Position numbers and translations under genes: made by a program. A stretch of 58,842 nt of DNA from SAR202 cluster bacterium (GTDB taxonomy: Bacteria > Chloroflexota > Dehalococcoidia > Lucifugimonadales > Lucifugimonadaceae): contig RQOU01000059.1 in assembly GCA_008373165.1 (NCBI GenBank), positions 1 to 58,842 of the forward strand, written 5' to 3'. The notes beneath the pieces are model-generated. The model was not told the DNA's origin and did no database searches. It worked only from the letters and a program-made list of their open reading frames with translations. Positions 8,921 through 35,213 of the stretch are shown here, in pieces; position 1 is the first letter of the stretch, and the number at the start of each line of letters is the position of its first letter.

Positions 8921-11293
8921 TTAGGTTGAGCGTCGAATTATCAATTTGTCGGTGGTATTTTCATCAACATGTTTCCGATCGAGTGGAATGAAATGTTGAG
9001 AGTTTTGCATCCAAGAGTCTAGTTGATCACAGTAGTTAACACTTCCTGGGTTTCCTGATTGACCGGCTGCGTCTACTGCCCAAAGCCCAGGCGGGTCATC
9101 AGAGAGGTCGGCGATTAGCCTGTAGTTTGCACCCATCACGGCCAAATAATTGGGGTCAAACCCCGTGTTTGAAACGGTGATCCCACTACCGCTGACTCCT
9201 TGTCCCCCGCGACTTAGTCGGCTGAAAATTGGTCCCATCTGTGCGAGGGGATGGTAGAGGTGTACTTTATGTATAGTGCCCCAATTCCACTTAGATTTAT
9301 CTTGACCTACATCTTTGGAGAGATTATCGATCGTTTTATCCATTGCTCGACGAGCTGATTTGGCCCGTTCGCCTGAGGGGAACCAATTACTGGTGTCCTT
9401 CGTCAGAAGTTCCGTCGACAATCCACTTGAGGCTCCAGCCATAAGCGGCACCAAGTTTGCAGGAAATCGGGCAGCTGCTACTTCTTCTGTCCAGTTAGCA
9501 AAAAATACTTCGAAAAGAGATGCTCCTACACTATCGGTAGACATTCTTCCATCCCAGTTTTTAAGAATGTTAATTTCTTCATCCAGGTTGTTGGCATTTG
9601 TACCTGTTAGTAGCTGTAACAAGCCAGGGATGGTATCGACTGCTCGTTGTGCAACGACATCCATTTGCATTTCATTTACAGTTTCCCGAGTGTGTGTTGC
9701 TTCCGATTCGATCATCTCCCGTATCCGTTGCGCCCTGTATCCGCTGCTCCATACTCCCGATAATGGATATGGGAAGTCTTCAGGGGCTGTTCGATTATTT
9801 GCAGACCTGATCCATCCGTTTGACGGATCTGTAATCGATGGCATTTCTTCGAATCGGATAGTTTCGTTCCATTGATGTTCCGGATCCCATCCTGGTCTGT
9901 ATCCGCGATCCCAGTCTTTTTTAATCGGTAATCGTCCACTCGCCTGATATCCGATATGTCCTTCGGAATCGGCGAATACGAAGCTAAATGTTGGGACGAT
10001 CCAGGGGCGTAGTGCTTTTCGAAATTCGTTAGCAGTGTTGGCGCGGTTCATATCCAGCATGCTTGATATTTCATCACAGGGGTCTTCACCCATCCATCGC
10101 AGTGAAACAGGTCCAGTATGAGAAGCAGCTTCGGGAATAATCTCATCAACGATGGGGCCATTTCTCGTTCGGCGAATTGTTCGTGTGACCGGGCTTTGGC
10201 CTTTGACAGTAATTGTTGCCGTGGTCTTAACGGCTTGTTCCCATTGTCCGTCGTAGAGGTAGTAACCAGGTTTTTCGGGGTTTTCTTTTTCCTTGTATAG
10301 ATCCCTTTGAGCACATATGTTGTTGGTTAATCCCCATGCAACTTTTTCGTTACGACCGAACAGCAATCCCGGCACTCCAGCGTAACCCGTTCCTGCCACG
10401 TTGAATCCTGCTCCCGAGAGGTGAGCTTCGTACCAGCAGGATATGCTTCCAAAGGCTATATGAGGATCACTGGCGACTAAAGGCAGGCCAGAGGCGGTCA
10501 GTTGCCCAGCGATTGTCCAGTTGTTGCTTCCCTGTCCTTCGGATGAGTCGCTGACTGTTTGGCCCACACTACCAATGTTTGAGTGTCGCGCTGGGTACAT
10601 TCCTTTTGCAACGATGCTTTCATTTTCTGCCTCGCCGGTTAGAAAAGCTTTATAGAGTTCGTCGTTATCGAGAGTTTGCTTTGCCAGTTCTGGAATCACG
10701 ATTATTGGGAGCCGTCCGGTTAGATACCAACGAAGTTCTGCCCAGATAGCGACCGAATCCGCAGAGGTCCATGATTCTGGGCTGTAATCCAGTAGGTCGA
10801 ATTCGATCGGCAACAGATCACCAGATTCGATCATAAATTCGTTTATTCCACTGGAAAATGCGTCAAGCCGCGTGCGCGTGCGAACCGACATTCTGCGTAC
10901 TTCTGCTTCGGCTAATTGAGTCAATCCTAGTGTGTGTGAAATCGTATCCGTCTCGAGAGATGATGGTCCTAGAACTTCAGATAGTTGTCCCATTGCCTTT
11001 CGTCGCAGGTAGTCGAGTTGCCACAACCGATCCTGAGCCATTGCGTATCCATATCCAAAGAAGAGATCTTCGTCTCGTTCGGCATAAATGTGTGGGATCC
11101 CCCACTTGTCCCTAAGGATTTCGGCGTTGGCTGATGACGTTCGGGATCCTTGTGACGACGGCACTCGTGAAGCCAACTGTGTCGACCACCATTTTTCGAA
11201 TTGTTCATTGGATAAACCTGCAGCAGAACAGACTTCTTCTATCGAATCACCAGCGCCGAGTTTTTTGAGTAGTGACTTGTCGTTTATTTTCAC
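8921..11293 (-). CDS. Penicillin acylase family (Ntn-hydrolase) amidase
   Basis: 790 residues. The autoproteolytic site is GSNNW, with the new N-terminal nucleophile S256 following GQG, and SDPH lies about 20 residues later. The alpha region (about 56-250) starts with the family's LRDKWGIPHIYA. The family hydrolyses amide bonds of acyl side chains, including penicillins, N-acyl-homoserine lactones and N-acyl amino acids. Most members are exported, but no signal peptide is visible here. Instead the first ~45 residues form a charged helical segment resembling a small helical domain (IEEVCSAAGLSNEQFEKWW). The start is GTG with GGAG six bases upstream. First gene of the acylase-monooxygenase-enolase operon. 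Substrate unknown. Confidence 0.9.
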   Translation of the reverse strand: MKINDKSLLKKLGAGDSIEEVCSAAGLSNEQFEKWWSTQLASRVPSSQGSRTSSANAEILRDKWGIPHIYAERDEDLFFGYGYAMAQDRLWQLDYLRRKAMGQLSEVLGPSSLETDTISHTLGLTQLAEAEVRRMSVRTRTRLDAFSSGINEFMIESGDLLPIEFDLLDYSPESWTSADSVAIWAELRWYLTGRLPIIVIPELAKQTLDNDELYKAFLTGEAENESIVAKGMYPARHSNIGSVGQTVSDSSEGQGSNNWTIAGQLTASGLPLVASDPHIAFGSISCWYEAHLSGAGFNVAGTGYAGVPGLLFGRNEKVAWGLTNNICAQRDLYKEKENPEKPGYYLYDGQWEQAVKTTATITVKGQSPVTRTIRRTRNGPIVDEIIPEAASHTGPVSLRWMGEDPCDEISSMLDMNRANTANEFRKALRPWIVPTFSFVFADSEGHIGYQASGRLPIKKDWDRGYRPGWDPEHQWNETIRFEEMPSITDPSNGWIRSANNRTAPEDFPYPLSGVWSSGYRAQRIREMIESEATHTRETVNEMQMDVVAQRAVDTIPGLLQLLTGTNANNLDEEINILKNWDGRMSTDSVGASLFEVFFANWTEEVAAARFPANLVPLMAGASSGLSTELLTKDTSNWFPSGERAKSARRAMDKTIDNLSKDVGQDKSKWNWGTIHKVHLYHPLAQMGPIFSRLSRGGQGVSGSGITVSNTGFDPNYLAVMGANYRLIADLSDDPPGLWAVDAAGQSGNPGSVNYCDQLDSWMQNSQHFIPLDRKHVDENTTDKLIIRRST

Positions 11294-20949: not shown

Positions 20950-23262
20950 ATGAAAATCACTACTAAATTATTTTTGATTATGGTCGTGCTAATGGTTACC
21001 TCTCTTGTAGTTGCGTGTGGGGGAGGAGACGATTCCGATGCCCCTGCTGCTCCCGCTGCACCGGCAGCCAAAGCAGCTCCCACGGCTACGGCGGAGCCAG
21101 CGAAACCTGAAAAGGAAGAAGAGGCTCCAGCGACAGTGGTTAAGATTGGTCTTTTGAGTCCCCAGACGGGTCCCATAGCTGTATATGCGCCTGGTTTTGA
21201 GGATGCGGCTAACGTCGCTATAACTGCTTTGAACGATTCTCAGAAGAGCCATGAGTTTGAGCTTATAGTTGCGGACTCAGGTTGTGATGGTACGCAGGCT
21301 GCGACCTCCGCCCAGTCGCTGATCGACTCGGGTGTTGTGGGTATAGTTGGAGCTGCGTGTTCTGGTGCAACGCTTGGAGCGATTGCAGTTGCTGCTCCGG
21401 CCGGTGTGCCTATGGTCTCCTATGCGAGCACTTCGCCTGCTGTGACTACGGCGGATGACGATGGTTATCTTTTCCGTGTTGTTCCAAGTGATGCTCAGCA
21501 ATCTGTCGCACTGGTAGATGTAGTCAAGTCAGTAGGAAGCAGTAATCCTGGTGTTCTTTACATGACTAATGATTATGGGGCTGGCCTTGCTGAAAACTTC
21601 AAAGGTGCCTGGGGAAGCGTGTGTACTGAAGTTGGGTACGACCCGACAGAAGGTTCTTACGATGCATCGACTCTGGCGCAGGCTGTAGTAGATGGTGGAT
21701 GTGATTCCGTTGTACTAATGTCTTATGCGACTGACGGTGCAGCTATTATGGAAGAGTTGCTCTCGCAGGGCTTTAGTGGTGATCTTTATGGAGCTGATGG
21801 TGTTGCAGATGCTGCGTTCGTGGAGTCATTCACTGACACTGCTGCGGTAGATGGCTTGGTTGCTACGAAGCCTCGCCCGGGTAAAGACTCAAGCGCAAAG
21901 TCTACTTTTGAAGCTGCTTACGCTGCAGCTGGAGGAAATACAGAAGGTATTTACACTCACGAGACTTACGATGCAGTGAACATTATTGCTCATGCGGGTA
22001 AAGCTGACTCTGATGGTGATCTTCGTGATGATCTTGCTAGCATAGGCTCGAGTTACGATGGTGCCAGCGGATCTCATACGTTTGACGATAACGGTGATGT
22101 GCCTGGTACGGGCTACGAGATCTGTCGTTTCAGTGGCACTAACTTCTCATGTGAGCAGATATGGACCTCCGAAGGTGGTGTGGAAGGTGAAGTCAGTGTG
22201 ACGAAAGTCATGATTGGTCTTTTGAGTCCCCAGACGGGTCCCATAGCTGTATATGCGCCTGGTTTTGAGGATGCGGCTAACGTCGCTATAACTGCTTTGA
22301 ACGATTCTCAGAAGAGCCATGAGTTTGAGCTTATAGTTGCGGACTCAGGTTGTGATGGTACGCAGGCTGCGACCTCCGCCCAGTCGCTGATCGACTCGGG
22401 TGTTGTGGGTATAGTTGGAGCTGCGTGTTCTGGTGCAACGCTTGGAGCGATTGCAGTTGCTGCTCCGGCCGGTGTGCCTATGGTCTCCTATGCGAGCACT
22501 TCGCCTGCTGTGACTACGGCGGATGACGATGGTTATCTTTTCCGTGTTGTTCCAAGTGATGCTCAGCAATCTGTCGCACTGGTAGATGTAGTCAAGTCAG
22601 TAGGAAGCAGTAATCCTGGTGTTCTTTACATGACTAATGATTATGGGGCTGGCCTTGCTGAAAACTTCAAAGGTGCCTGGGGAAGCGTGTGTACTGAAGT
22701 TGGGTACGACCCGACAGAAGGTTCTTACGATGCATCGACTCTGGCGCAGGCTGTAGTAGATGGTGGATGTGATTCCGTTGTACTAATGTCTTATGCGACT
22801 GACGGTGCAGCTATTATGGAAGAGTTGCTCTCGCAGGGCTTTAGTGGTGATCTTTATGGAGCTGATGGTGTTGCAGATGCTGCGTTCGTGGAGTCATTCA
22901 CTGACACTGCTGCGGTAGATGGCTTGGTTGCTACGAAGCCTCGCCCGGGTAAAGACTCAAGCGCAAAGTCTACTTTTGAAGCTGCTTACGCTGCAGCTGG
23001 AGGAAATACAGAAGGTATTTACACTCACGAGACTTACGATGCAGTGAACATTATTGCTCATGCGGGTAAAGCTGACTCTGATGGTGATCTTCGTGATGAT
23101 CTTGCTAGCATAGGCTCGAGTTACGATGGTGCCAGCGGATCTCATACGTTTGACGATAACGGTGATGTGCCTGGTACGGGCTACGAGATCTGTCGTTTCA
23201 GTGGCACTAACTTCTCATGTGAGCAGATATGGACCTCCGAAGGTGGTGTGGAAGGTAAGTAA
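20950..23262 (+). CDS. ABC transporter binding protein, tandem-duplicated (two LivJ-like domains)
   Basis: 770 residues. A lipoprotein signal (MKITTKLFLIMVVLMVTSLVVAC, C23) and an Ala/Pro/Lys/Glu-rich linker (about 28-60) lead into two type I periplasmic-binding domains of the Leu/Ile/Val family. The domains (about 66-413 and 422-769) are identical in amino acids where compared. Both start IGLLSPQTGPIAVYAPGFEDA. At DNA level the repeats are 21144-22188 and 22212-23256, with a period of 1068 bp (356 codons) and the frame kept. The 23-bp joint encodes EVSVTKVM, which differs from the residues before the first domain. It would be anchored outside the membrane and deliver amino acids or similar ligands to the fused permease downstream. 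Usual length is about 400 residues. A recent duplication, gene conversion or an assembly fusion of two paralogues are all possible. Confidence 0.9.
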   Translation: MKITTKLFLIMVVLMVTSLVVACGGGDDSDAPAAPAAPAAKAAPTATAEPAKPEKEEEAPATVVKIGLLSPQTGPIAVYAPGFEDAANVAITALNDSQKSHEFELIVADSGCDGTQAATSAQSLIDSGVVGIVGAACSGATLGAIAVAAPAGVPMVSYASTSPAVTTADDDGYLFRVVPSDAQQSVALVDVVKSVGSSNPGVLYMTNDYGAGLAENFKGAWGSVCTEVGYDPTEGSYDASTLAQAVVDGGCDSVVLMSYATDGAAIMEELLSQGFSGDLYGADGVADAAFVESFTDTAAVDGLVATKPRPGKDSSAKSTFEAAYAAAGGNTEGIYTHETYDAVNIIAHAGKADSDGDLRDDLASIGSSYDGASGSHTFDDNGDVPGTGYEICRFSGTNFSCEQIWTSEGGVEGEVSVTKVMIGLLSPQTGPIAVYAPGFEDAANVAITALNDSQKSHEFELIVADSGCDGTQAATSAQSLIDSGVVGIVGAACSGATLGAIAVAAPAGVPMVSYASTSPAVTTADDDGYLFRVVPSDAQQSVALVDVVKSVGSSNPGVLYMTNDYGAGLAENFKGAWGSVCTEVGYDPTEGSYDASTLAQAVVDGGCDSVVLMSYATDGAAIMEELLSQGFSGDLYGADGVADAAFVESFTDTAAVDGLVATKPRPGKDSSAKSTFEAAYAAAGGNTEGIYTHETYDAVNIIAHAGKADSDGDLRDDLASIGSSYDGASGSHTFDDNGDVPGTGYEICRFSGTNFSCEQIWTSEGGVEGK
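21144..23256 (+). repeat. Two ~1045-bp direct repeats, in frame, apparently identical
   Basis: Copy 1 is 21144-22188 and copy 2 is 22212-23256, separated by 23 bp. I saw no mismatch where I compared them, and identical translations occur in more than one frame. The period of 1068 bp is a multiple of three, so the gene stays open. Confidence 0.93.
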
Positions 23263-29551: not shown

Positions 29552-31018
29552 TCACAACTTTGCTTCAGTGTGAATTTGGATTCGGTCTACCATTCGATTG
29601 TGTATACGATCAAACACCAACGTATGAATGGGTAACAATCCGAACCAGTACGCGTAACCTATTAGTCCTCTGGGGTTAAAAGTTACTGTTTGCGTGAGTT
29701 CTATATTTTTTTGTGTGTTTGGTGAATTCGAGCACGCGACTTTGAGGTCGAACAAAGCATCTCCTGGCAATCGCATTTCTGCCCGCAGCGTTAGTCGTTT
29801 TTCAGATGATCTTTCGACTACCCAGAAATCTACCTTGTCTCCGACTTCCAATTTGCCCAGTGGTCTGCCCATTCGGTAACCGACGCCACCAACCATTCTG
29901 TCCAGTGCTCCTCTAACACGCCATAACCATGTCGCCCAAAACCAACCGTACGATCCGCCCACCGATTTAATCGTGCTCGACGCATACTCAATATCACCTT
30001 TTATGCTGGTCACACGTTTTTCGATGAATCTAGTGCCTAATTGCCAGTGGCTTCTGTTACTGCGATTGTTATTACGCAACGGTGGATTTGCGTCTATGAA
30101 TTCGAGTCGTTTTTCTTCGTTGGATAAAGCTGAAGCGACTGCTTCTCTTGTCGACATTACCTTTACGTTGAAAATTTTGGCTGAATCATTTGAAATTACT
30201 GATTTATGAAGGGCGCTATCTACGATGCGCCGGCCAATTCTGAAGTGTGCAGGGGTGAAAATTCTTAGCCAATGGCTTGAAAGCGATGGAGAAATGAAAG
30301 GTATGTTGATCATGAACCGCTTAAGGCCTCTTGATCTTGCATAAATTTTTATCAAGTCGAGGTAGGTGATCACGTCAGCACCGCCGATTTCGAAAATGCT
30401 GCTTTTGCGATTATTGTATGAAGCAGCTGCAATAAGATATTTTGACAAATCTTCCGCTGAGATTGGTTGTAAGGGTTGGCGAACCCAGCGCGGTATTATC
30501 ATCGCTGGAAGTCGTTCAACTAGTGCTCTGACCGCTTCAAATGGCATAGAACCCGTTCCGATCACTATTGATGCTCGGAATTCTGTAACTGGGACTCCAG
30601 AATTTCTTAGAATTTCTCCGACCTTCCACCGACTACTCATATGGGCCGAATTGCTTTTAGAGTTTTGTGCTAAAGCACTCAGATAAATAATTTTTGATAA
30701 TTGGGCGTTTGATGCAGCGTTGGCGAAATTGGCAGCAGTTTGTGCTTCGATTTCTTCGAAGTCATCAGTTTCTCCTAGAGAATGGACGAAATAATAGGCA
30801 ATATCAGCGTTTTTAAACGCGCTTGTTATTGCCTTTTTCTTCGACAAGTCTGCCTTTATAGCTACTGCATTTTTTGGCAAATTAGTTAATTTGCTAGGAT
30901 CTCGTGTGATGCACCTGACTTCTTTGAAAAGTTGGGATAACTGTTTCAAGATCAGATTTCCGACATACCCAGTCGCGCCAGTCAGTATTACCGTTTGCTG
31001 ATTTATCGGTGGATTCAA
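29552..31018 (-). CDS. SDR-family NAD(P)-binding protein with C-terminal DUF2867
   Basis: 488 residues. The N-terminal atypical SDR domain has the nucleotide motif TGATGYVG (about 13-20) and YYFVHSLG. The C-terminal third reads like DUF2867 (MGRPLGKLEVGDKVDFWVVE, LRAEMRLPGDALFDLKV), ending in a hydrophobic segment. This YbjT-like fusion is widespread and biochemically unclear. The start is TTG and overlaps the stop of the SRPBCC gene (TTGA), so it is cotranslated. As third gene of the B12-regulator operon, it is a likely target of that regulator. Confidence 0.85.
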   Translation of the reverse strand: MNPPINQQTVILTGATGYVGNLILKQLSQLFKEVRCITRDPSKLTNLPKNAVAIKADLSKKKAITSAFKNADIAYYFVHSLGETDDFEEIEAQTAANFANAASNAQLSKIIYLSALAQNSKSNSAHMSSRWKVGEILRNSGVPVTEFRASIVIGTGSMPFEAVRALVERLPAMIIPRWVRQPLQPISAEDLSKYLIAAASYNNRKSSIFEIGGADVITYLDLIKIYARSRGLKRFMINIPFISPSLSSHWLRIFTPAHFRIGRRIVDSALHKSVISNDSAKIFNVKVMSTREAVASALSNEEKRLEFIDANPPLRNNNRSNRSHWQLGTRFIEKRVTSIKGDIEYASSTIKSVGGSYGWFWATWLWRVRGALDRMVGGVGYRMGRPLGKLEVGDKVDFWVVERSSEKRLTLRAEMRLPGDALFDLKVACSNSPNTQKNIELTQTVTFNPRGLIGYAYWFGLLPIHTLVFDRIHNRMVDRIQIHTEAKL

Positions 31019-31500
31019 TACAAGAGATCTCGCAAAGAGTGTTGGCGATATTTAAAGATTTTCTTTAGGTCACGTTTGACGAAAAGCGCATGCGTAAAAC
31101 GACTAAATGGAACTTTGTAGGTAACGACGTCTTTCACCTGGGTCGAGTCTTTATCGTGTTTCTGTAATAAGTGTTCATGATGCCAATATCGGTATGGTCC
31201 GCTTTTTTGTTGGTCAACGAATCGATACGGAGGTTGCCAAATAGGTATTTCAGATACCCATTTCATTGGAAAGCCTCTGATCTTCAGGCGGTACTCGATA
31301 GTGGTGCCGACCCCCATTCGAATGGGGGTATCTGAAACGATATTAAAGTGCAGCCACGGAGGGGTGATTTTATTGAGATTTTCTGCCCTTGCAAAGAATT
31401 CAAACGTTTCTTCTAAAGAGCGATTCACAATAGTTTGAGTTGTCAGTTGGTAAACGTTGCCGTTGAGACGTTCAATGATAGGTGGTGAAAATGTTGTCAT
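31015..31500 (-). CDS. SRPBCC family protein (cyclase/dehydrase-like ligand-binding fold)
   Basis: 161 residues. An N-terminal strand (VYQLTTQTIVNRSLEETFEFFARAENLNKITPPWL) is the helix-grip opening of SRPBCC proteins, and RYWHHEHLL and VKDVVTYKVPF lie further on, as in the YfjH/polyketide-cyclase-like subgroup. It binds a hydrophobic ligand in a deep pocket; the ligand is unknown. It lies 31 bp after the B12 regulator gene and overlaps the SDR gene by four bases. The pair SRPBCC plus SDR-DUF2867 is a recurrent partnership as far as I recall. Confidence 0.85.
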   Translation of the reverse strand: MTTFSPPIIERLNGNVYQLTTQTIVNRSLEETFEFFARAENLNKITPPWLHFNIVSDTPIRMGVGTTIEYRLKIRGFPMKWVSEIPIWQPPYRFVDQQKSGPYRYWHHEHLLQKHDKDSTQVKDVVTYKVPFSRFTHALFVKRDLKKIFKYRQHSLRDLLY

Positions 31501-31531
31501 CCGTCTGGGAGGCCGAGATTGACGATATCTT

Positions 31532-32431
31532 CTAATCGTCTATCAGCTCAACTATGTTCACATCAAGCGCGTCGGATAGATTTTTCAAGGTTGCAAAACT
31601 GACGTTCTGTTTGCCATGCTCTACTGCACTTACGTAACTACGATCTAACTTGGAGGCCGTGGCAAGTTGCTGTTGGCTGAGGCCTTTCTCTTTCCTGAAA
31701 TGTTGGATTCTTCCCCCCAGATCGGTGAGCATTGCCTGTATCGTCTTAGCAGAAATACCCAGATCAAATCTTTCGGTTGTCCATTTGAGTGCGGTGACAG
31801 GATCTGACGCTACATAATCTGCAGTTTCCAGGGAATTCTGCGAGCCATTATTGTTGATTGCTCCTCCGCCGACAATGATTGTGGTAGAGGGGGCGGCGCT
31901 TTTCACGATTTTTATGGTTTCTGCAGCTGCAGAAACCTGTTCTGATAGCGTTACCGACAGGCATAGAAGATCTGGTTCGTTTGATTTTACGATCTCGAGA
32001 ATTGCATCGTTCGGAGTATCTGTTCCAAGGAAATCCACATTCCAACCATCGAAACGTAATAAGTCGGCGAATATGAGCGCCCCTCCCAAATGGGTGTCTC
32101 CCGCCACCCCAGATACAATCGCATGTAATCCAGTTTTAGATCCGTCGGGGTAAGAATGCTTGACAAGTGCAAGCAGACGAAACGCAATCTGTGTGGCCCG
32201 GTGTTCAGTCGAAATATTCAGCTCACCACGGTGCCATAAAGCACCAATTTCAGCCATTGAGTGAGATACCAAGTCTATGTATATTGTTGTTGGTGCCCAT
32301 CTCTTGGAAATTGAATCTTCAATCACTTCGCTGGCACGTGTTTGATCTCCTGCTATTAACGCATCGAGAAGTGCTGTTTGATGTTTTCTGAGCTCAGGAG
32401 CACGAGGTTTTGTACGAAATTTATGATTCAT
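31532..32431 (-). CDS. B12-binding CarH/LitR-like photoreceptor domain fused to a C-terminal XRE HTH
   Basis: 299 residues. Residues ~15-92 form the four-helix B12-cap domain, with W66-H67 and E76-H77, matching the W-x9-EH motif plus the His next to Trp that becomes a ligand after photolysis in CarH. Residues ~100-220 form the Rossmann-like cobalamin domain with D112-T-H114-L-G-G117 (DxHxxG, lower axial ligand H114) and GGGAI. Residues ~236-299 form an XRE/Cro HTH (LGGRIQHFRKEKGLSQQQLA through LDVNIVELIDD). Known CarH/LitR proteins instead have an N-terminal MerR HTH. It is probably a cytoplasmic, adenosylcobalamin-dependent repressor whose DNA binding changes with light. It heads an operon with SRPBCC and SDR genes, so autoregulation is likely. 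No obvious ribosome binding site precedes the ATG. Confidence 0.85.
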   Translation of the reverse strand: MNHKFRTKPRAPELRKHQTALLDALIAGDQTRASEVIEDSISKRWAPTTIYIDLVSHSMAEIGALWHRGELNISTEHRATQIAFRLLALVKHSYPDGSKTGLHAIVSGVAGDTHLGGALIFADLLRFDGWNVDFLGTDTPNDAILEIVKSNEPDLLCLSVTLSEQVSAAAETIKIVKSAAPSTTIIVGGGAINNNGSQNSLETADYVASDPVTALKWTTERFDLGISAKTIQAMLTDLGGRIQHFRKEKGLSQQQLATASKLDRSYVSAVEHGKQNVSFATLKNLSDALDVNIVELIDD

Positions 32432-32987
32432 AGATCGGTCACGCGCCCAAGCACTTACTAATTGAAAGGTTTAACTTAAAAACCATATGTTTCCTAAATG
32501 TTGCGAGCAAATGACGTAGTTGTTACACATGTGGGTCGCCTGTGTTGTATATTTTCAACCACCAGAGATTTCTCAACGTTATGCGATCGAAGTTGTTATC
32601 GACCATTCAACTGGATTGCAGCGTGTTATTGGTTTGACCCGTTGACGTCCTTTCGGACTCTTCTAAATCAAGTTTCTGCCCAAGATATATCTGTTTTGCA
32701 TTCCTTCTTTAAACCTAATTGGTCTAAACCTTTAGATGATGAAACCGTATCTATACAACATTATCGCATAAATGGTGACTTTACACCACAGGGACTGTAA
32801 AGTAGGATATATTCAACAAATAATAATAAATGAAACTTTAATTCAAATTTTCAAACTGGGATCTATCCGATTACGTATGTTCGAATCACAGTCAGAATGT
32901 TCTCAAAATGAAAATCGATTAGAATTTCTTGTTTTTCATGACCCTTAGCCGATAACTACTCTGTAGCCTGAATTGACCTAACAAACA
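32432..32987. other. 556-bp divergent control region
   Basis: It lies between the B12-regulator operon and the MMPL gene. I see no believable gene (a 100-codon frame at 32498-32800 looks random). It includes the 8-bp palindrome CACATGTG (32526-32533), flanked by ACACA (32525-32529) and TGTGT (32541-32545), and a small GGTTT/AAACC repeat near 32467-32483. The right half is AT-rich. It is the natural place for operators of the B12-XRE protein. Confidence 0.45.
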
Positions 32988-35213
32988 ATGTTTTTTTCTT
33001 CTTCGTCCACTCCGAAAAGAGCCGTCGCTGGCTTATTTATCTGGCTTCTAGCTGTAGGGATGGTGTTCTCCTTAGCTCCCAAACTTGATGATGTCACTAC
33101 AAACGAGACTGAGGAGTTTCTGCCTGCCGGAGCGGAATCGGTTCAGGCTCTCGAATTAAGAGCTGAAAAATTTCCATCAGGGGATGGTATTCCAGCATTG
33201 GTGGTGTTCAGTTCGCGAGATGATATTGCTAGTAAGAATGAAGCTGTTGAGTCATTTACCAAAATCGCTAGATCGGCTGCAGCCCCAGAAGCGATTCAAT
33301 CGGTTCTCTCTCCAGGCGATTCTCTAGCTGCAAACGCTACTTTGAATTCTGAAGATGGTTCCACGTCTATGGTGGTGGTTACGATTAATGGCTTACCTTC
33401 TAACCCCCCGTTTCAGTCGGCCGTAGAGTGGCTATCAGACCGAGCAGCGGAAACTGGTGGTGAATTGAAAGATCCCGAAGGCCAAGTGGTAGACACAGCG
33501 GTAACAGGACCGGCGGGTATCATCATTGATGCTGTTAAAGTTTTTGGAAAAATTGATGTAGCAATAACTGCAGCTACTGGGTTACTTGTCCTTGTCCTAC
33601 TTTTGCTGATTTATCGATCTCCTGTTACGGCAATTATCCCGCTATTAGTAATTGGATCTGCTTTATCACTAGCACAGGCGATTGCTGCATTGTTGGCTGA
33701 CAATTTTGATTTGCCTTTGAATGGTCAAGTAACCGGAATCATGTCTGTCTTGGTCTTTGGGGCAGGCACCAATTACGCTCTTTTCATAGTCTCCAGATAT
33801 AGAGAGGAGCTAGTCAGTCAAAGTGATAAGTGGTTGGCTATGCGATCTACTATGTCCCGTGTTGGACCCTCAATTGCAGGGTCTGCTGGGACCACAATGG
33901 TTGCGATGTTAGCTTTGACTTTTTCTTCTTATGGCTCCTTCAGGTCTCTGGGCCCCATGCTTGCCATGGCTATCTTTGTTGTTTTATTGAGTGGTATTTT
34001 TGTCATGCCAGCCGTCATAGCTCTGTGTGGGCGGTGGGTCTTCTGGCCACGGCCTTTGATTCAAAGTCATTCATTTTCGGATTCTGGTGTTTGGAGCAGG
34101 GTTGGCCAACTTGTTGTGCGCCGGCCATTGCTCATTTTCTCCATAACGATGATTGGGATTGTTATAGCGACCATACCTGCATGGTCGATTAAGCCTAGCC
34201 ATAATTTTTTGGCTGGTTTTCCTGACGATATGGAATCGAAAGTGGGCTATGAAATGCTTGCTGAATCATTTCCCCCAGGGCGTCTTGCACCTACCGAAAT
34301 TTATATTGTCGCTTCTGAGCCTAATATCTTGACTGCAGCTGTAGAAATTGATGATTTGACAGCACGGCTTGCAAACATGGAGGACATTGTGAGCGTGACG
34401 GGTCCCACCCGCCCGGCTGGACGTCCGGTGAACTCCGGGGGGTATCTAGAGCAGGGAGGCGGAAGATTTATTTCGCTTGATGGGTCTACAGCGCGAATCG
34501 ATGTAGTTTTGAAAGGCGATCCGTATTCCACTGAATCACTGGCTACGATAGTAACAATTCGTGAAATCCTCTCAAGTACTGAATTTCCAACGCTGCTAGC
34601 CCCTTACACGCTCGTAGGAGGTGATACTGCCATAGAGTCAGATACCAAGGCTGCTATAGATGCCGACGTTAGCTGGCTGGCGCCTGTATCTCTCATTGCG
34701 ATTTTACTGATTCTCATTTTATTGTTGAAATCTGTAGTTGCGCCACTGTATTTAGTTTTCAGTGTCATAGTGAGTTTCGGAGCCACTTTCGGTCTGTCAG
34801 TATTTGCGTTTCAGGAGATTTTTGGACATTCAGGTGTTGCGTATCAGAACGGGGTTTGGATGTTCATTTTCCTGGTTGCTCTAGGGGCCGATTACAACAT
34901 TTTTGTGATGTCCCGTATCCGTGAATCGGTGGGGCAGCATGGAATTAGGCAGGGTATAGCAATAGCAGTTGGTCGGACTGGTGGTGTCGTTACATCCGCT
35001 GGAATAATTCTCGCAGGCACATTTGCTGTTTTGACTACACTTCCATTGAGGGATTTATTCCAGCTTGGCTTTGCTGTCAGCTTGGGCGTTCTCATAGATA
35101 CATTTATCGTAAGAGCTCTTCTGGTCCCGAGCATGGCTGCCATTTTAGGAGAGTGGAGTTGGTGGCCTCGCAAAACAGGACGCACAACAGATATACCAGT
35201 TAACTCCTCGTAG
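32988..35213 (+). CDS. MMPL/RND-superfamily transporter
   Basis: 741 residues with about 12 membrane segments: one N-terminal helix, an external domain (about 35-170), a five-helix bundle (about 185-365), a second external domain (about 400-550) and a second bundle (555-725). Signature segments are GAGTNYALFIVSRYREEL in the first bundle and GADYNIFVMSRIRES in the second, as in MmpL proteins. It would export lipids or other amphiphiles using the proton gradient. It is divergent from the B12-regulator operon. The cargo is unknown. Confidence 0.93.
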   Translation: MFFSSSSTPKRAVAGLFIWLLAVGMVFSLAPKLDDVTTNETEEFLPAGAESVQALELRAEKFPSGDGIPALVVFSSRDDIASKNEAVESFTKIARSAAAPEAIQSVLSPGDSLAANATLNSEDGSTSMVVVTINGLPSNPPFQSAVEWLSDRAAETGGELKDPEGQVVDTAVTGPAGIIIDAVKVFGKIDVAITAATGLLVLVLLLLIYRSPVTAIIPLLVIGSALSLAQAIAALLADNFDLPLNGQVTGIMSVLVFGAGTNYALFIVSRYREELVSQSDKWLAMRSTMSRVGPSIAGSAGTTMVAMLALTFSSYGSFRSLGPMLAMAIFVVLLSGIFVMPAVIALCGRWVFWPRPLIQSHSFSDSGVWSRVGQLVVRRPLLIFSITMIGIVIATIPAWSIKPSHNFLAGFPDDMESKVGYEMLAESFPPGRLAPTEIYIVASEPNILTAAVEIDDLTARLANMEDIVSVTGPTRPAGRPVNSGGYLEQGGGRFISLDGSTARIDVVLKGDPYSTESLATIVTIREILSSTEFPTLLAPYTLVGGDTAIESDTKAAIDADVSWLAPVSLIAILLILILLLKSVVAPLYLVFSVIVSFGATFGLSVFAFQEIFGHSGVAYQNGVWMFIFLVALGADYNIFVMSRIRESVGQHGIRQGIAIAVGRTGGVVTSAGIILAGTFAVLTTLPLRDLFQLGFAVSLGVLIDTFIVRALLVPSMAAILGEWSWWPRKTGRTTDIPVNSS

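Follow-up and report, generated by a model that had tools for sequence, protein, structure and literature searches.

Within the window, i.e., the whole stretch of 58,842 nucleotides analyzed here (contig RQOU01000059.1 of a SAR202 cluster bacterium), one gene combines a cobalamin sensor resembling that of CarH photoreceptors with a DNA-binding domain of another family, located at the opposite end of the protein. The locus raises the question whether this protein is a light-responsive, B12-dependent regulator and, if so, which genes it controls. An initial annotation had proposed a light- and B12-controlled switch of independent origin, acting on its own operon and perhaps on the divergent MMPL transporter gene. 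The features discussed are collected in Table 1.

Table 1. Genes, protein domains and predicted operator sites at the B12-XRE locus (positions refer to the window).
Feature	Position	Strand	Description and basis
B12-XRE regulator gene	31532..32431	-	299 aa, ATG start; AlphaFold2 model, mean pLDDT 88.4
B12-binding_2 four-helix bundle	32171..32374	-	residues 20-87, GxxW(H) 63-67 and EH 76-77; Pfam, homologues, model
B12-binding Rossmann domain	31838..32125	-	residues 103-198, GDTHLGG 111-117 (lower-ligand motif), GxxxP 136-140; Pfam, homologues, model
XRE HTH_3 DNA-binding domain	31544..31702	-	residues 244-296; Pfam, model; nearest solved sequences include C.AhdI
SRPBCC (Polyketide_cyc) gene, operon position 2	31015..31500	-	ORF, Pfam; homologues near the regulator at other loci
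SDR/NmrA-DUF2867 gene, operon position 3	29552..31018	-	ORF, Pfam; homologues near the regulator at other loci
MMPL-family transporter gene, divergent, possibly also an operator target	32988..35213	+	ORF, Pfam
Predicted operator site A, TGTTGAATATATCCTACT	32801..32818	-	18.7-18.8 bits; motif
Predicted operator site B, TGTGGTGTAAAGTCACCA	32773..32790	-	9.7 bits, 28 bp from A; motif; paired pattern specific in 31 genomes
Weaker operator-like third site, GGTTGAAAATATACAACA	32543..32560	-	13.9 bits, in degenerate second promoter-block copy; motif

Domain structure, family and ancestry of the regulator

ORF translation gave a single uninterrupted open frame for the regulator gene. All three Pfam domains scored above their curated cut-offs (B12-binding_2, 1.6e-11; B12-binding, 2.5e-16; HTH_3, 1.6e-13) and, with 50.9 bits compared to a Pfam gathering score of 23, the HTH_3 domain belongs to the XRE/Cro HTH_3 superfamily. 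A MerR domain was absent in the Pfam scan, and the sole HTH is the C-terminal XRE domain. In sequence comparisons, its nearest solved relatives are C.AhdI, C.Esp1396I and other XRE regulators. W66-H67, E76-H77 and DTHLGG, as well as the C-terminal XRE HTH, had been reported in the initial annotation, and all of them were found again in the ORF and by Pfam (G63-A-L-W66-H67, E76-H77, and G111-D-T-H114-L-G-G117). The segment G136-T-D-T-P140, overlooked at that time, completes the pattern GxxW/EH/GxxH/GxxxP (G63-W66, E76-H77, G111-H114, G136-P140), which the SignatureFinder study gives as the signature of light-responsive cobalamin-binding domains (CBD; PMC11796333). Of the NCBIfam models, CarH covers the sensor part alone (62.5 bits, cut-off 400), and the MtgC, MtbC and MtaC models match weakly (MtgC 51.9 bits, cut-off 370).

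Searching 100 related genomes and a genome contig database, we detected 49 homologues with the same architecture in SAR202, Planctomycetota (Candidatus Uabimicrobium), Fraseribacteriota (Candidatus Fraserbacteria) and MAGs that carry the label Deltaproteobacteria. Other Chloroflexota families contributed a further three proteins of this layout. The closest contig outside the own genome belongs to a SAR202 cluster MAG, whose regulator is 83% identical. A single-genome oddity was therefore rejected. In the relatives, too, sensor and HTH are encoded in a single frame. This excludes a mis-joined gene as well as a frameshift, the latter named beforehand as a result that would speak against the fusion, and the proposed attachment of a CarH-type B12 sensor to a non-MerR HTH is borne out by Pfam domains, residues and homologues alike. 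G63, E76 and H114 are invariant (49/49); W66, H77 and P140 are each present in 47/49. H67, whose CarH counterpart ligates cobalt after photolysis (PMC10442372), is kept in 40 and replaced in nine, and the key light-CBD residues are complete in 45 of the 49 proteins. Further, the HTH motif at approximately residues 263-276, typically DRxYISxVExGKQN, is conserved throughout the family, which suggests a shared operator. The own genome (85% complete) encodes a CobA/BtuR-type adenosyltransferase (PF02572); neither a PF01923 adenosyltransferase nor a MerR-B12 fusion (MerR-CarH) was found in it.

In a tree of 103 cobalamin domains, obtained by a quick search and containing several long branches, the B12-XRE sensors group with CarH (including TtCarH, from T. 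thermophilus) and photocobilin-like domains (SH-aLRT 100, branch length 1.34). CarH forms its own clade (99). Corrinoid proteins and MetH fall outside this branch, and so the kinship with corrinoid methyltransferases, which the initial annotation had listed as a point that could overturn it, was not found. On the other hand, the independent origin claimed for the whole switch does not hold, as the sensor half has its ancestry in common with the CBDs of CarH and photocobilins. Judged from sequence, what is separate is the fusion with an XRE domain at the opposite end and not the sensor itself; this fusion could still have arisen once. The AlphaFold model consists of the four-helix bundle, the Rossmann domain and a five-helix HTH at residues 231-297. 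A structure search with this model returned photocobilin 8j2w as the best match (Z 24.6, rmsd 1.8, 207 aligned), followed by CtMerR 8jbs (Z 22.4) and TtCarH (Z 18), all matches spanning residues 12-225 only, i.e., the sensor part, with the HTH outside. A biliverdin-binding globin-like domain was absent in both Pfam scan and model.

Predicted operator

Palindromic motif discovery in 47 upstream regions yielded an 18-bp, TATA-centred palindrome, TGTnGaaTATAttCnACA, as the family-wide operator motif, with a log-likelihood of 189 compared to 24-26 in three shuffles and an estimated presence in approx. 94% of the regions. The sites often occur as pairs, and in 19 of these the two starts are 28-33 bp apart. 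When the motif was run over the loci, 29 pairs were recovered, compared to none in shuffled sequence, and 21 of them precede the regulator. Among the rest are pairs upstream of genes that had no part in motif training, namely fasciclin (L065, and L103 in the own genome), RudS (L035) and SDR-DUF2867 (L048). In the own genome, which was searched with patterns alone, the loose single-site pattern did not outperform its reversed control (52 matches compared to 75 per strand), while the stricter paired pattern proved specific, with 13 matches over 31 genomes and two in the reversed control. A paired pattern derived from the genus matches 9 of the 31 genomes and, within the genus, its matches lie upstream of the regulator, of decayed regulator copies, or of one fasciclin gene of the own genome.

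The operator pair of the window is situated approx. 340-390 bp upstream of the regulator start codon, while in its congeners the gene begins shortly behind the pair. Autoregulation is probable given this predicted pair in the regulator's own promoter region, in line with the self-control of the operon suggested in the initial annotation. The interval between pair and start codon (32440-32770) contains the promoter block a second time, in degenerate form, and is also long in the 83% identical sibling (L087). Scans of 32380-33010 with consensus promoter and terminator patterns performed no better than in shuffles.

Several further observations concern the motif. Two decayed regulator copies with stop codons (L086, G014:C1 near 2024604-2024829; L085, G001:C64 near 9350-10084) are still preceded by a well-matched operator pair. 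In the own genome, four operator-like sites are arrayed upstream of a fasciclin-domain lipoprotein gene (L103:3845-3950, contig C123), which adjoins GT2, CrtI-like and Caroten_synth genes. On contig C74 of the same genome, FolE and photolyase genes stand in tandem (L115:4558-6521); a weaker pair (7.3 and 13.0 bits at 30 bp) is found approx. 390-420 bp upstream of FolE, with a short open frame between. In the delta-labelled clade (L036-L043), motif discovery returned no clear operator copy; by eye, a variant operator resembling GGTG-N9-CACC is perhaps present.

Neighboring genes

The three-gene operon outlined in the initial annotation was confirmed: the SRPBCC gene follows 31 bp downstream of the regulator, and the TTG start of the SDR-DUF2867 gene overlaps the TGA stop of the gene before it. 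The operator pair is located 170-215 bp upstream of the MMPL gene, and an MMPL gene is likewise divergent from the regulator at L055, L056, L075 and L087, so that control of this transporter gene by the regulator is possible. Elsewhere in the window, many genes resemble the enolase superfamily, which fits SAR202 (PMC10444878). A substrate-binding protein gene of a branched-chain amino-acid-type ABC operon at 20950-23262 (+) consists of two nearly identical tandem halves, either a recent duplication or an assembly artefact.

Neighbors in the family include SRPBCC, SDR-DUF2867, photolyase, FolE, fasciclin, MMPL, RudS (TudS-DUF1722), CMAS and amine-oxidase genes, a set which resembles both the class II LitR regulon (PMC9758184) and RudS operons (PMC11417400). 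In the same genus, one complete genome of 3.09 Mb has two full regulator copies. Each of them is divergent from a photolyase operon with heliorhodopsin (HeR) one gene further on, an arrangement reported for strain JH545. The divergent operon at both G014 loci reads fasciclin-FolE-SRPBCC-photolyase-SDR-heliorhodopsin; in G001 it is FolE-heliorhodopsin. Photolyase, FolE, HeR or RudS genes adjoin the regulator in SAR202 and at L035, L048, L065, L070, L072 and L082. Within the fetched flanks, only 10 of 49 loci have any of these four genes. The delta-labelled clade shows no recognizable light-type neighbors; a DnaJ-domain protein, Methyltransf_9 and ApaG recur there instead. At the genome level, photolyase turns up in 17 of the 34 genomes that encode the regulator, compared to 5 of the 66 in which it was not found (Fisher p 3e-6). 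Taking one genome per family, the numbers are 6/8 and 0/31 (p 9e-6). This association may come in part from a common sunlit habitat.

MerR-type CarH loci of the same phylum have a related surrounding. Among 20 such loci, six carry an SDR related to the SDR-DUF2867 protein, two an SRPBCC gene, two a photolyase and one a heliorhodopsin. At L207, MerR-CarH, SDR and SRPBCC lie on one strand, and at L203, MerR-CarH is divergent from an SRPBCC-SDR fusion and heliorhodopsin; the SDRs checked at these two loci gave no DUF2867 match. The impression is of a single type of gene set placed under two different heads, XRE and MerR. The relatives' neighbors, the co-occurrence with photolyase and the neighbors common to MerR-CarH loci thus support a light-regulon context more strongly than the initial annotation could see.

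Proposed light-responsive regulation, rival readings and known systems

We consider it likely that the gene encodes an AdoCbl-based, light-responsive transcription regulator, with a CarH/photocobilin-type sensor N-terminal to an HTH resembling that of controller proteins, and that it probably acts as a dark repressor. For this regulator we infer AdoCbl binding, a light effect, a change of oligomer, binding of the HTH to the predicted sites, and repression rather than activation. In the dark, AdoCbl would be capped by W66 and E76/H77, with H114 serving as its lower ligand, and would promote the formation of oligomers. Two HTH dimers within such an oligomer could grip a pair of TATA-centred palindromes spaced 28-33 bp apart, in the promoter of the regulator's own operon and in those of related ones (fasciclin, FolE-photolyase, SDR, RudS, heliorhodopsin). 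On exposure to blue-green light, the Co-C bond would break, whereupon H67 could become the new upper ligand. The oligomer would fall apart and release the DNA, and light-protection genes would be expressed. Points against this reading are the replacement of H67 in nine homologues, the four loci with B12-assembly genes, the delta-labelled clade, the small number of loci with light-type genes in the flanks and, in the window, the long distance from operator pair to start codon and neighbors of no established light role.

Alternatively, the protein could sense the supply of AdoCbl instead of light, with the holo-protein binding DNA and loss of AdoCbl releasing it, in the service of B12 homeostasis or of metabolism tied to B12. 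Every regulator gated by AdoCbl reports on its level as well, and in one subclade of the regulator the B12-assembly genes for CobT (DBI_PRT), CobS and CobU stand beside it at L067, L068 and L077, and those for CobT and CobU at L078. Because of this pairing, supply sensing is a live rival at least at these four loci. For the family, however, it is unlikely in view of the light-type neighbors in SAR202 and at the six other loci named above, the photolyase co-occurrence, the operators at light-type genes, and a sensor which keeps the Trp/Glu-His cap and mostly H67. Still less probable is a cofactor-free descendant, in the manner of CarA-type proteins, which need no B12; its cobalamin domain would then serve only as a scaffold for oligomerization or for the docking of a different light sensor. 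B12-independent paralogues do exist in the MerR family (PMC9304148), and class II LitR is LOV-controlled with short-LOV proteins (PMC9758184), but cofactor loss should let H114, E76, W66 and H77 drift, and these are invariant or nearly so. It is hardly credible that the protein is of the corrinoid methyltransferase type, with an HTH by chance, and senses methylated corrinoid or C1 metabolism. Despite the common fold and the weak MtgC/MtbC/MtaC matches, the tree rejects this identity, as the long and fully supported branch of the sensor is separate from the clade of corrinoid proteins, the light-CBD cap residues are present, and no methyltransferase partner occurs among the recurring neighbors.

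Returning to the light-responsive regulator, its widespread family, its own paired DNA sites and its frequent position near UV-repair or light-protection genes suggest that it probably tells light-sensitive SAR202 ocean bacteria when to turn on sun protection. With somewhat less confidence, we lean towards another class of B12 light switch, put together separately from the sensor and a C-terminal XRE head and acting on paired TATA-centred palindromes, which governs a photoprotection regulon like that of MerR-CarH in several phyla and, in SAR202, times heliorhodopsin, photolyase and FolE. SAR202 isolates are inhibited by light, the cause being unexplained (PMC10444878); if true, a second switch class may bear on the light sensitivity of the cultured strains. 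Similar genes apparently governed in one phylum by a B12 light sensor attached to two unrelated DNA-binding heads would mean that the sensor is a portable module, needing neither a MerR head nor an 11-bp direct-repeat operator. In addition, the predicted operator is defined and can be tested at once, and the protein may offer a compact switch for green light that works on palindromic sites.

Literature searches covering the main texts of largely open-access papers found no description of an XRE-B12 photoreceptor. The kind of protein was already known, since SignatureFinder noted light-type CBD-HTH fusions at either end, the C-terminal side included (PMC11796333), and the regulator carries the signature of its set of putative light-responsive CBDs. 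The main text of that study contains no XRE class, operator, regulon or experiment for HTH-CBD proteins (PMC11796333). To this the present analysis adds the XRE family as such, with its distribution, operator and regulon context.

Compared to CarH/LitR of the MerR family, such as T. thermophilus CarH, the sensor is homologous in sequence and fold and has the same capping and ligand residues: for the W-x9-EH cap, the lower His and the upper His after photolysis, the candidate positions are W66, E76, H77, H114 and H67. The neighborhood of TtCarH is of the light-protection type as well (phr, phytoene synthase, NDUFA9-like SDR), and Chloroflexota MerR-CarH share related SDR, SRPBCC and heliorhodopsin neighbors with the regulator. 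In contrast, the head of CarH is MerR and N-terminal rather than XRE and C-terminal, and its operator consists of tandem 11-bp direct repeats, nnnnTnnACAn (PMC9304148), instead of the paired 18-bp TATA-centred palindromes predicted here. Photocobilins (SasPcob, AbDPcob) provide the closest solved structures to the sensor (8j2w), and in SasPcob the sensor also precedes the rest of the protein; they carry a biliverdin-binding globin-like domain where the regulator has a DNA-binding domain. Controller proteins of restriction-modification systems (C.AhdI, C.Esp1396I, C.Csp231I), two of which, C.AhdI and C.Esp1396I, are among the closest solved sequences to the HTH, differ in being small stand-alone regulators of restriction genes without a sensor domain. 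Regarding DNA sites, two dimers of C.Esp1396I bind two TATA-centred palindromes that lie next to each other (PMC4041747), and C.Csp231I has widely spaced sites, for which the spacing matters (PMC4321490).
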